This document shows, piece by piece, positions 28,294 through 31,775 of a stretch of DNA of 40,017 nucleotides. How positions within the stretch are numbered: the first letter of the stretch is position 1; the number at the start of each line of letters is the position of its first letter. The position numbers were made by a program, and so were the translations under genes. The stretch spans positions 1 through 40,017 of the forward strand of contig JALSNF010000033.1 of NCBI GenBank assembly GCA_026987115.1. The letters run 5' to 3'. Below the pieces are notes generated by a model. It saw nothing but the letters and a program-made list of their open reading frames with translations, made no database searches and was not told the DNA's origin. This stretch comes from Desulfurobacteriaceae bacterium. Its GTDB lineage: Bacteria; Aquificota; Aquificia; Desulfurobacteriales; Desulfurobacteriaceae.

Positions 28294-28935
28294 TTGGAGC
28301 TCCTTAAAGAGGTCCCTTTGTTTTCAAACCTCTCTGAAGACCAGTTAGAAAGGATAGGGCGACTTTTATTTTCAAAGAAATACCTAAAAGGTGAAGTTAT
28401 CTTCTCTCCCAACGAAAAGGCAGAATTTTTCTTTATCCTTAAGCGGGGAAAGGTAAAGGTCTTTAAAACCCTGAACGGGAAGGAGCAGATAATAAAGGTC
28501 TTTGAAAAGCCTGCGCTTTTTGGAGAAGCGGCAAGCTTTACTGGGAGTTGCTTCCCTGCTTGGGCTGAAGCTATTGAGGACTCAGAAGTTCTTCTCGTTT
28601 CTCGGAAAAGTTTCCTTAACCTCTTAAAGGAAGAGCCAGAGCTAGGTATGAACCTTATGGCAGTAATGGCTCAAAGACTCTTTTACCTTACAACCTTAGT
28701 AGAAAACCTTTCTTTAAAAAGTGCCCTATCTAAACTCTCCTCTTACATCCTTTCTAAACTTGAAGGCGAAGAAGAGATAAACTTTAGCACCAGCCTTGCT
28801 GCAATGGAGCTTGGACTTACAAAAGAGACCGTGTCAAGGACGCTTTCTAAGCTTAAAGCTTTGGGAGTTATTGAAAAGAAGAAAAGCAAAATAAGAGTTA
28901 AAAATAGGAAAGCTTTACAAGAGCTGTCTTGCTAG
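28294..28935 (+). CDS. Crp/Fnr-family transcriptional regulator (HcpR/DNR-like)
   Basis: A 213-residue regulator. Residues 5-120 form a cyclic-nucleotide-type beta barrel (LKGEVIFSPN, ILKRGKVKVFK, LFGEAASFTG), then a dimer helix (about 118-140) and a Crp-type winged helix. The recognition helix KETVSRTLSKL has E178, S181 and R182 in the E-xx-SR pattern by which FNR reads TTGA half-sites. Only two cysteines exist (C86, C213), so there is no FNR [4Fe-4S] cluster; a heme or NO-sensing DNR/HcpR type is plausible but inferred. The TTG start follows AAGGAGG. It is the last gene of the long run. Its stop shares a CTAG with the convergent ygbA stop. The likely target is the operator at 31325-31338. 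Confidence 0.88.
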   Translation: MELLKEVPLFSNLSEDQLERIGRLLFSKKYLKGEVIFSPNEKAEFFFILKRGKVKVFKTLNGKEQIIKVFEKPALFGEAASFTGSCFPAWAEAIEDSEVLLVSRKSFLNLLKEEPELGMNLMAVMAQRLFYLTTLVENLSLKSALSKLSSYILSKLEGEEEINFSTSLAAMELGLTKETVSRTLSKLKALGVIEKKKSKIRVKNRKALQELSC

Positions 28936-29240
28936 GAGATTTTCTCTTTTAGCTCGTGGACAATCCAACTTAAAGGGGAGAAGATTAAAAGCCTTGGACC
29001 GCTAAACCTCATAACCTCCTTTATTTTTTCCCTCATCTTTGGAGAGTAGCAGTGAACTTTACACTTCTTGCAAGTCGGTTTTTCTTCGCCAAAAGGGCAC
29101 TTTTCAAGCCTTTCGTAGGCGTACTTTAAAAGCTCTGAACACTCCTTGCAGAGCTCTCCCCTTTTCCTTTTGTGTTTTCTCCAGCAGTATATCTCAATCA
29201 TCTTCCTTATTGTCTCTTTTTCCCTTTCAATTTCTCTCAA
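28932..29240 (-). CDS. ygbA: YgbA-family protein (nitrosative-stress linked)
   Basis: A 102-residue cytoplasmic protein of the family named nitrous-oxide-stimulated promoter (YgbA). It has seven cysteines, C19, C31, C34, C48, C57, C60 and C64, in the family pattern LCKECSELL, then CPFGEEKPTCKKCKVHCY, then the conserved REKIKEVMRFSGPRLL. In E. coli ygbA is induced by nitric oxide through NsrR and has been tied to Fe-S cluster protection under nitrosative stress. The TTG start at 29240 follows AGGAGG by six bases. It lies 73 bases after the CooS-like gene on the same strand, behind a terminator hairpin, so it may be expressed by partial read-through. Its tail overlaps the Crp/Fnr gene by four bases. 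Confidence 0.9.
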   Translation of the reverse strand: MREIEREKETIRKMIEIYCWRKHKRKRGELCKECSELLKYAYERLEKCPFGEEKPTCKKCKVHCYSPKMREKIKEVMRFSGPRLLIFSPLSWIVHELKEKIS

Positions 29241-29253
29241 CCTATGCCTCCTT

Positions 29254-29283
29254 TAATAAAAGCCCCTCCCTTTAAGGGAGGGG
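29254..29283 (-). terminator. Hairpin terminator or attenuator between the CooS-V-like gene and ygbA
   Basis: CCCCTCCC (29263-29270) and GGGAGGGG (29276-29283) form an eight-pair stem with a five-base loop. Read on the minus strand the stem is followed by CTTTTATTAAAGG, a U-rich tract typical of intrinsic termination. It lies 31 bases after the CooS-like stop and about 20 bases before the ygbA start, too close for a separate full promoter. Partial read-through into ygbA is therefore likely (inference). Confidence 0.8.
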
Positions 29284-29313: not shown

Positions 29314-31266
29314 CTATATCCCGAGAAGTTCCCTCTTCTTCTCTATGTGCTCCTCAATTCCGTCTGCAGCTTGGAGCGGGTCGTCTCCTACGGCTATTTT
29401 ACCTCCGGTTAGCCCTTCAACTTCCTCTGTTAGGAGTTTAACCACTTTGTCTGAACCTGTAACCGGAGGAACCGGTGAAACGTGGGTGTAAAGTCCCATA
29501 GCAACTGCAGAGAACCCGTCAATTACGGCTTTCTGTTCCATGTATTCTGGAGCCGTAACTGCTACTGGTAGCTGTGAAGGGTCCACTCCAAGGGCGTTTG
29601 CTATTGCAACTACCGTCATGATAATTCTACCTGTATCTGTGCAGGTTCCAAAGGAAAGGACGGGAGGAATACCCAATGCCTTGCACACCCCTTTTAGTTT
29701 TGCACCTGCGTATTTATCTGCGGCCTCCACCGTTTCAAGGCCTGCCTTTTGAAGTCCTCCGTTTCCGCACCCTGCACCTATTACTAAAATGTCCCTCTTT
29801 ATTAGCTCTTTCGCTATTTGAACGGTCATACTGTCTTGTGGGCCGTTGCCTAGGGAGGTGCAGTTTACTAGGGCTACTACTCCCTTAATGTCTCCAGACT
29901 TAATAACGTCAAGTAGGGGCTGTAGGCTTCCTCCCAAGGCGTTTACTATGGCTTCAGCAGAAAAACCTACCATTGCTTTCTGTTTAAACTTGCTTACGTC
30001 GGTTTTCGGAGCTCTCTTCCTCTCTTTAAAGTTCTCTACTGCCAGCTTTATTATCTCTTTTGCAATCTCTTCTTCCTTGCCTGGTTTGTATTCAAGCCTT
30101 ATGGAGCCGGGAACTCCTATTATGTTTGATACTGCTATTAACTTAAAGTTATACTTGTCTGCATACTCCTTAAGGTTTGCAAGTGAACAGTTCATGTCCA
30201 TTACAAAGGCGTCAACGGCACCTGTTGAGAGGAAGTACTCAATAGATATCCAGTTTGAAGTTAGGCCGGGGAAGACATCAGAACACTCAAGTCTTGCCAT
30301 CATCTCTTGTCCAGTCTCAATTGAGCCGACTATCCTTATACCTTTAGCTCCCGCTTCCCTTGCCATTTGCTGGAACTTTTCGTCTTTTGCCAGCTTAACT
30401 AAAGCCATTCCTACGAAAGGCTCGTGGCCGTTAGGCAGTATGTTTACGTAGTCTGGGTCTAAGACTCCAAAGTCAACGGTGCACTCGTGGGGAGAAGGAG
30501 TTCCGTAAAGGGCATCCTGTATCATCTCAAGGGGAACGAGAGCTCCAAAGGCAGAAGCAACTCCGTTTCTAAGGGCAGCAAGGGCTAAGGTAATGTAATC
30601 ACCGTCAATGTTCGTCATTGACCTTGCAACAGAGTCAACAAGCTCGTTCATAGGTCCTTTAGGCATTATTCCAAGTTTCCTAAATACCTCTTTCCTGCTT
30701 TCTGGAGCCAGCTTTTCCACGAAAACGGAGTAGTTGTTTTCAGATAGGCTCTTTAGTACTCCCTCTGCTACTGCTTGAGCTTTCCTGTCTAAGGGTAGGT
30801 TTTCGTCAACGCCTAAAACCTGTGCAAGGGCGTCAATTTTTGAAGGGTCCTTAATTTCGTAAACCGTATTTCCCTTTGCAGTTTCAAGTAAAGTTAACGC
30901 CGCTTCCCTACAGTGATAGGTGTAGGCTGCAAGCCCCATGTTGGCTTTAATTAGTAAGTTCCTCATTACTATTCCGTGGGCATCTATTCCGCACACGCCC
31001 CTTGGCGTCTTTGATGTAATCCTGCACGGTCCCATTGAGCACAGTTGACAGGAAACTCCCTCTTTACAGAACTTACACCTTACCTTTTCCATTGCCTCAA
31101 ACCTGTCTGCAACGTTTGACAGGCCGGCCTCTTTGACCTTTTTATACATAAAGTTGACGCTCTCGTGGAAGGAGGGCATTTTTAAACCAACTCCTTGGGA
31201 AAGGTCAGACTCAACGCAGAAGCTTTCTTGTTGCTTTCCGTTGTTTTTCTTAAAAAACCCAAACAT
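29314..31266 (-). CDS. CooS-V-like protein: CODH scaffold with altered (hybrid-type) active-site cluster
   Basis: A 650-residue protein of the anaerobic CO-dehydrogenase CooS family. The B-cluster cysteines C73, C76, C81 and C92 are present. The D-cluster site is CxxC (C64, C67) with S72 in place of the usual second cysteine, as in the [2Fe-2S] D-cluster type. Of the C-cluster set, H281, C360, C469, C500 and C542 are conserved, as are K579 and H118. The remaining ligand (Cys295 in C. hydrogenoformans CODH-II, motif CCTGNE) is replaced: here the motif reads GSIETGQE, placing E317 there. Loss of this Cys marks CooS-V-type proteins, shown in the literature to hold an Fe-S-O hybrid cluster, to lack CO activity and to react with hydroxylamine. 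I therefore do not call it a CO dehydrogenase. No cooC, cooF or acs gene is near. The ribosome site is AGGAGG before ATG 31266. Confidence 0.88.
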   Translation of the reverse strand: MFGFFKKNNGKQQESFCVESDLSQGVGLKMPSFHESVNFMYKKVKEAGLSNVADRFEAMEKVRCKFCKEGVSCQLCSMGPCRITSKTPRGVCGIDAHGIVMRNLLIKANMGLAAYTYHCREAALTLLETAKGNTVYEIKDPSKIDALAQVLGVDENLPLDRKAQAVAEGVLKSLSENNYSVFVEKLAPESRKEVFRKLGIMPKGPMNELVDSVARSMTNIDGDYITLALAALRNGVASAFGALVPLEMIQDALYGTPSPHECTVDFGVLDPDYVNILPNGHEPFVGMALVKLAKDEKFQQMAREAGAKGIRIVGSIETGQEMMARLECSDVFPGLTSNWISIEYFLSTGAVDAFVMDMNCSLANLKEYADKYNFKLIAVSNIIGVPGSIRLEYKPGKEEEIAKEIIKLAVENFKERKRAPKTDVSKFKQKAMVGFSAEAIVNALGGSLQPLLDVIKSGDIKGVVALVNCTSLGNGPQDSMTVQIAKELIKRDILVIGAGCGNGGLQKAGLETVEAADKYAGAKLKGVCKALGIPPVLSFGTCTDTGRIIMTVVAIANALGVDPSQLPVAVTAPEYMEQKAVIDGFSAVAMGLYTHVSPVPPVTGSDKVVKLLTEEVEGLTGGKIAVGDDPLQAADGIEEHIEKKRELLGI

Positions 31267-31324: not shown

Positions 31325-31338
31325 TTGACTTAGGTCAA
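31325..31338. promoter_or_regulatory. Crp/Fnr-type operator TTGAC-N4-GTCAA
   Basis: The sequence TTGACTTAGGTCAA has perfect 5-base inverted arms around four bases. It has the FNR/HcpR layout (TTGAN6TCAA core) and lies in the 134-base divergent region between the CooS-V-like gene (minus) and the NifX-like gene (plus). For the minus-strand promoter its centre (31331.5) is at -41.5, the class II activator position. The nearby Crp/Fnr protein (28294-28935) has the matching E-xx-SR recognition helix. Confidence 0.75.
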
Positions 31339-31400: not shown

Positions 31401-31775
31401 TTGAAAGTAGCAGTTCCAGTTTTAGAGACTGAAGTTAACGGTAGGAGGCTTGTAAACGCCCACTTTGGTAAGTCAAATCTGTTTGCCGTAGCTGACCTTG
31501 ATTCGGGGGAGGTTGAATTTTTTGAGAACCCTGCCCTTCACTTAGAAAGGGGAAGGGGAGTTTACATTGCTCAGTCTTTTTACGATAGGGGAGTTGAAGC
31601 GGTTTTGGTTAAGGAAATGGGGCCCGGTGCTTTTGATAAGGTGAGAAACAGGTTTGGAATGAAGGTTTACTTAATTCCCTCTAAGGTTAAGTTTTTAGAC
31701 GAGGCTTTAACTCTCTTTAAGGAGGGAAAGCTTCAAGAGCTCTTGGAACCTAACGAAGAAGAAGGGAAACACTAA
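31401..31775 (+). CDS. NifX/NifB-type Fe-Mo cofactor-binding domain protein
   Basis: A 124-residue single-domain protein of the dinitrogenase iron-molybdenum cofactor family (MTH1175-like, ribonuclease-H-like fold). It shows the family pattern: MKVAVPVLE start, VNAHFGKSNLFAVADL with the conserved His-Phe-Gly, a glycine-containing GVYIAQSFYDRGVEAVLVKEMGPGAF, and a C-terminal acidic tail. Such proteins bind metal clusters or their precursors; no nif genes are here, so nitrogen fixation is not implied. The TTG start at 31401 follows GGAGGT. It is divergent from the CooS-V-like gene and shares its operator region; a cluster-delivery role is inference. Confidence 0.85.
   Translation: MKVAVPVLETEVNGRRLVNAHFGKSNLFAVADLDSGEVEFFENPALHLERGRGVYIAQSFYDRGVEAVLVKEMGPGAFDKVRNRFGMKVYLIPSKVKFLDEALTLFKEGKLQELLEPNEEEGKH

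Follow-up and report, generated by a model that had tools for sequence, protein, structure and literature searches.

The window analyzed here, a stretch of 40,017 nucleotides, is a contig of a Desulfurobacteriaceae assembly (1.38 Mb, 91% complete) and carries a gene whose product is annotated as a carbon monoxide dehydrogenase (CODH). The locus raises the question of whether this protein is a nickel enzyme acting on CO and, if it is not, which role it would fill in these heat-loving bacteria.

Active site and clade of the 650-residue protein

The gene and the two codons that bear most directly on its class are the following.

29314..31266, minus strand: CODH-fold protein of the CooS-V type, structural group D-1 (650 aa; TIGR01702, 801 bits)
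30316..30318, minus strand: GAG codon of Glu317, replacing C-cluster Cys295 (by alignment; Glu317 invariant in A2)
29536..29538, minus strand: Glu577, equivalent to CooS-V Glu556, a ligand of Fe3 in the hybrid cluster (by alignment; ligand role from PMC9311411)

Searching the PDB with phmmer returned CooS-V of Carboxydothermus hydrogenoformans (7b7q) as the top match (E 1.7e-202), with 52% identity to the window protein. The cluster ligands were aligned with those of 7b7q and of two CODHs, the Thermococcus enzyme (6t7j) and ChCODH-IV (6elq). Residue 317, located within IVGSIETGQE, is a glutamate and aligns with E295 of CooS-V, while both CODHs harbor there the second cysteine of MCCTGNE/ICCTGNE. 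No shifted register in this alignment brought a cysteine to position 295, confirming the claim of the earlier note that one C-cluster cysteine is missing and that Glu317 occupies the place of the Cys of CCTGNE. The remaining ligands H281, C360, C469, C500, and C542, which the earlier note had listed as kept, are indeed retained and correspond to H259, C338, C449, C480, and C521 of CooS-V. The B-cluster cysteines C73, C76, C81, and C92 are retained as well. At the site of E577, the two reference CODHs carry S/H; C67 is equivalent to CooS-V C41 of the bridging D-cluster, a position held by glycine in both CODHs, and Y115 occupies the site of the acid-base histidine. An active Ni,Fe-CODH is expected to have five cysteines and one histidine at the C-cluster, together with the acid-base histidine; here, Cys295 is replaced by glutamate and the histidine by Tyr115.

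The full signature was found in 20/20 inspected family loci, in four sequences of a sister family, and in 80/80 D-1 loci from GTDB genomes in which the ligand columns were covered, indicating that it did not arise by chance. These 80 loci encode the closest homologs of the window protein; the patterns used to search for them left out position 317, and all of them have glutamate there.

In a tree of 110 proteins (quick IQ-TREE search, SH-aLRT support, without bootstrap), a single branch with an SH-aLRT support of 99 set apart 79 rows, namely the window protein together with CooS-V and 77 further proteins carrying Glu295. This is the phylogenetic placement that the earlier note had called for and, with E577, C67, and Y115, three marks absent from that note, it agrees with the assignment to the CooS-V hybrid-cluster type made there. 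An AlphaFold model of the window protein (pLDDT 87.9) matched CooS-V best (7b7q/7b9a; TM 0.94, rmsd 1.4), the rmsd to Ni-type CODHs being about 2.0 to 2.6. Judged from its sequence, the 650-aa protein is of the CooS-V type and belongs to structural group D-1 of Inoue 2019, a group within the clade D Ni-CODHs with a Cys-to-Glu change at the first C-cluster cysteine and a tyrosine for the acid-base histidine (PMC6344411).

Two other Aquificota families harbor CODH-like proteins (L061-L067) with about 42% identity that keep Cys295 (GSLCTGQE). They are sister to D-1, on a long branch, and carry an aspartate where CODHs and D-1 proteins have a conserved lysine (K579 in the window protein), and their activity is doubtful.

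Carbon monoxide and the acetyl-CoA pathway

Giovannelli 2017 (eLife, PMC5441870) described Theam_1337 of Thermovibrio ammonificans as a "type V CodH" with conserved NiFeS ligands and used it as evidence for the acetyl-CoA pathway. A working Ni,Fe-CODH of this kind, supplying a relic reductive acetyl-CoA pathway with CO made from CO2, would be in line with the fold, with the retention of five of the six C-cluster ligands, and with the reported expression of the gene in T. ammonificans. However, a glutamate stands at the 295 site in every full-length family copy checked, including those of T. ammonificans and D. thermolithotrophum, and the NiFeS ligands of the T. ammonificans protein are, contrary to the 2017 statement, not conserved. 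The loss of Cys295 comes together with the His-to-Tyr change at the acid-base site and with the gain of E577. Moreover, CooS-V of C. hydrogenoformans has no CO activity, and the C295E variant of CODH-II loses both nickel and CO oxidation (PMC9311411). A profile search for acetyl-CoA synthase (PF03598) found none in the 22 family genomes, while the same profile detected bacterial AcsB at 235 bits, and no prismane-family protein other than the window protein was found in the window genome. Finally, the cassette around the gene lacks the CooC/CooF-type genes that adjoin the true CODH of D. thermolithotrophum. Taken together, a nickel enzyme serving a relic pathway appears very improbable. The gene should not be read as evidence for CO use or for the acetyl-CoA pathway in Desulfurobacteriaceae; the earlier note had already argued this, and the case is strengthened by the absence of acetyl-CoA synthase from the 22 genomes and of a second prismane-family protein from the window genome. 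Excluding Glu295 sequences from CODH surveys has already been advised in general (PMC13240472).

D. thermolithotrophum has, in addition to its D-1 copy, a second, true CODH with Cys295 (L052:3352-9995), whose neighbors, as read from their sequences, are CooF-like, NuoE/F-like, and CooC-like. The complete genome of this bacterium is devoid of acetyl-CoA synthase, although its Cys295 CODH was published as being of the classical bifunctional type.

A conserved cassette with an HcpR-type box

Five further genes and elements flank the CooS-V gene on its two sides.

28294..28935, plus strand: Crp/FNR-family regulator (PF00027 + PF13545), convergent; candidate regulator of the locus that would respond to NO
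28932..29240, minus strand: ygbA (YgbA_NO, PF11756, 133 bits), downstream of the CooS-V gene on the same strand
29263..29283, minus strand: terminator-like hairpin of 9 pairs between the CooS-V gene and ygbA, a possible attenuator
31325..31338, no strand assigned: HcpR/FNR-type palindrome TTGACCTAAGTCAA (minus-strand reading), matching TTGAY-N4-RTCAA, 59-72 nt upstream of the CooS-V start
31401..31775, plus strand: NifX/NafY-like protein (PF02579, 60.7 bits), divergent, on the far side of the palindrome; might carry Fe-S clusters

In 22/22 family genomes, representing 7 genera, ygbA is the gene directly 3' of CooS-V, with a gap of 57 to 108 nt (measured in 21 genomes), and in a sample of 131 genomes of the class it is confined to the two families in which D-1 CooS occurs. 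A general adjacency of D-1 genes to ygbA was rejected, since among the D-1 loci sampled it was seen only in Desulfurobacteriaceae. The Crp/FNR gene adjoins ygbA in 20/20 inspected family loci; its recognition helix KETVSR retains E181/R185, and a profile built on the family proteins scored regulators adjacent to hcp at 113 to 189 bits; its orthology to HcpR is putative. The NifX-like gene is conserved with the cassette in the family, and its product may carry the hybrid cluster. The order of the cassette survives in those inspected family loci where the outer synteny has changed. All of the 20 loci that were folded have a strong hairpin in the interval from the CooS-V gene to ygbA, its position and strength being kept but not its sequence. 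Because this hairpin separates the two genes, co-transcription of ygbA is not assured: it may be transcribed by read-through or separately, and the operon is putative.

The TTGAY-N4-RTCAA box, which matches the published HcpR1 consensus, precedes the CooS-V gene in 20/20 family loci; two of these loci have an inserted cupin-like gene, and there the box lies upstream of the insertion. In control sets, the same box preceded 15 of 23 hcp genes and none of 29 ordinary CODH genes. The window genome contains five matches, and the one at 31325-31338 is the only one outside long open reading frames. A wider regulon in this genome was rejected, the other four matches lying inside open reading frames and the total being equal to that of the reversed-pattern control.

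None of the 22 family genomes encodes a hybrid cluster protein (HCP) above the cut-off, and the window protein itself scores 51.3 bits with the HCP model TIGR01703, far below the curated cut-off of 360.8. A Nap-like gene is present in most family genomes; a strict tie of the cassette to nitrate respiration was rejected, as five genomes without NapA still keep the cassette. For NrfA, the family genomes gave partial matches only and none over the cut-off. In one genome (G004, L256:10978-14779), two octahaem c-type cytochromes of 486 and 564 aa, HAO/IhOCC-like, lie beside nap and are candidate nitrite reductases in this family without NrfA over the cut-off. Partial HAO/IhOCC-like matches occur near nap in most of 10 genomes, and no octahaem genes were found at the nap locus of T. 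ammonificans (L259). Since nap and octahaem cytochromes adjoin each other in G004, NO and hydroxylamine are to be expected in such cells.

Outside Aquificota, a ferredoxin-domain protein of about 250 aa is encoded within 4.5 kb of 20/66 D-1 genes. The same family flanks 10/23 genuine hcp genes but 0/32 ordinary CODHs (Fisher 1e-4 for D-1 and 4e-5 for hcp, with kinship ignored). By position and description it is probably the FrdX of Rodionov 2005; its presence, scored with a profile built from the D-1 neighbors, requires at least 11 changes on the tree. FrdX is absent from Desulfurobacteriaceae, where the search gave only short ferredoxin-domain matches. Other D-1 genes adjoin an Rrf2 regulator (10 genes), MsvR (9), a flavodiiron protein (9), or a Crp/FNR regulator (6). 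In eight methanogen/ANME-type D-1 loci, FTR-like and rubrerythrin-like genes accompany the flavodiiron gene. The ANME/Methanosarcinales loci (L124, L126, L129, L130, L133, L135, L137, and L138) harbor rubrerythrin-like, flavodiiron, FTR-like, and D-1 CooS genes in one direction and likely represent a detoxification cassette. HCP was found in only 3 of the 28 D-1 genomes searched, which differs from the high co-occurrence with HCP reported for clade D as a whole (eLife 2026 survey).

A proposed role in nitrosative defense and the place of the protein among known systems

Starting from the observed residues, clade, cassette, and box, and from the absence of HCP and acetyl-CoA synthase, we propose that the gene product is a homodimer with the CODH fold. 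Its active site is predicted to contain a redox-switching hybrid cluster of the Fe-S-O type, free of nickel and coordinated by H281, E317, C360, C469, C500, C542, and E577. The nickel-free cluster was shown for CooS-V of C. hydrogenoformans and should, given the identity of the ligands, also be present in the window protein. A ferredoxin is the most likely donor of low-potential electrons, which would travel by way of the intersubunit [2Fe-2S] cluster and the B clusters, and the enzyme would most likely reduce NO, hydroxylamine, or a related oxidant. It would thereby replace the HCP that is absent from the family. The adjacent Crp/FNR protein would probably sense the stress and switch the locus on from the TTGAY-N4-RTCAA box. 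This locus contains another nitrosative-stress gene, ygbA. We regard as probable this explanation as a whole, i.e., a D-1 hybrid-cluster enzyme acting as a ferredoxin-fed reductase that substitutes for HCP against NO/NH2OH-type stress, its cluster, substrate, electron donor, and regulation being deduced.

The earlier note had suggested detoxification of hydroxylamine or NO-derived species, and this role now has independent support from the gene context, but the biochemistry of CooS-V does not favor it. The C. hydrogenoformans enzyme is very slow on NH2OH (kcat 0.13 per s; 20 per M per s) and shows no NO reduction above background (PMC9311411), and its potentials lie about 300 mV below those of HCP, from which its authors deduced a different role (Jeoung 2022). 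The true substrate may therefore be another one. Counting against a substitute for HCP are, besides the slow CooS-V, the five genomes without NapA, the hairpin, the putative status of the Crp/FNR protein as an HcpR ortholog, the absence of FrdX, and the restriction of the ygbA link to the family. Nevertheless, standing in for HCP in nitrosative defense is the most likely role, and one that we hold with reasonable confidence.

Two other roles within nitrogen or redox metabolism have to be weighed against it. The enzyme could act as the hydroxylamine reductase step of nitrate ammonification, from Nap over an octahaem HAO-like cytochrome to CooS-V, in the place that Hcp takes in Nautilia. The Nap-like genes of most family genomes, the two cytochromes adjoining nap in G004, the lack of NrfA and HCP over the cut-offs, and the reverse-HURM precedent (PMC3701875) would fit such a pathway. 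However, the cassette is kept where NapA is missing, T. ammonificans has no octahaem genes at its nap locus, and the rate measured for CooS-V falls far short of what respiration would demand, so that we consider this role unlikely. Protection from oxygen or peroxide, or redox sensing, rather than a reaction with nitrogen oxides, seems equally unlikely to us. The MsvR, rubrerythrin-like, and flavodiiron neighbors found elsewhere also suit oxidative stress, the CooS-V paper connects oxidative or nitrosative stress with the Gly-to-Cys change of the bridging cluster (PMC9311411), and redox sensing is the role suggested for clade D in the eLife 2026 survey. In Desulfurobacteriaceae, however, the gene is accompanied by ygbA, which NsrR targets in Escherichia coli, and by an HcpR-type box, and both point to the nitrosative role.

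What is new here is the gene context, that is, ygbA, the Crp/FNR gene, and the HcpR-type box, the enzyme class having been known before (Inoue 2019, PMC6344411; Jeoung 2022, PMC9311411). No physiological role is known for clade D CODHs, and a survey of gene contexts from 2026 left them aside because they showed no pattern. The cassette, together with the FrdX, Rrf2, MsvR, and flavodiiron neighbors of other D-1 genes, provides a concrete and testable role. One main piece of the evidence for a relic reductive acetyl-CoA pathway in T. ammonificans and in the Aquificae ancestor is removed, and the annotation cooS (K00198, TIGR01702) is unsafe as a marker of CO metabolism unless residue 295 is checked. 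With a confidence only slightly above even, we would go further and hypothesize that D-1 "CODHs" as a class are replacements for HCP in lineages that mostly lack it, as suggested by FrdX, by HcpR/Rrf2/MsvR control, and by flavodiiron partners; that CooS-V and YgbA under an HcpR-type switch are the only hybrid-cluster defense of Desulfurobacteriaceae; and that the "type V CodH" evidence for an ancestral Aquificae acetyl-CoA pathway falls.

Among known systems, Theam_1337 of T. ammonificans is the counterpart of the window gene in another member of its genus, with 92% identity. With CooS-V of C. hydrogenoformans (7B7Q; PMC9311411), it shares all cluster ligands including E295 and E556, Cys41, the fold, and the clade. 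Unlike CooS-V, it lies on a separate branch, is the sole prismane-family gene of its genome, and stands beside ygbA and a Crp/FNR gene. It has both replacements typical of the D-1 group (PMC6344411), within which its family forms an Aquificota branch with a fixed ygbA/HcpR-box cassette, while the 2026 survey (PMC13056359) reported that the gene context of clade D followed no clear pattern. Finally, it resembles HCP (TIGR01703) in its predicted hybrid cluster, in the HcpR-type box and the Crp/FNR regulator, and, for other D-1 genes, in the FrdX-like neighbors; unlike HCP, it is built on the scaffold and dimer of a CODH.
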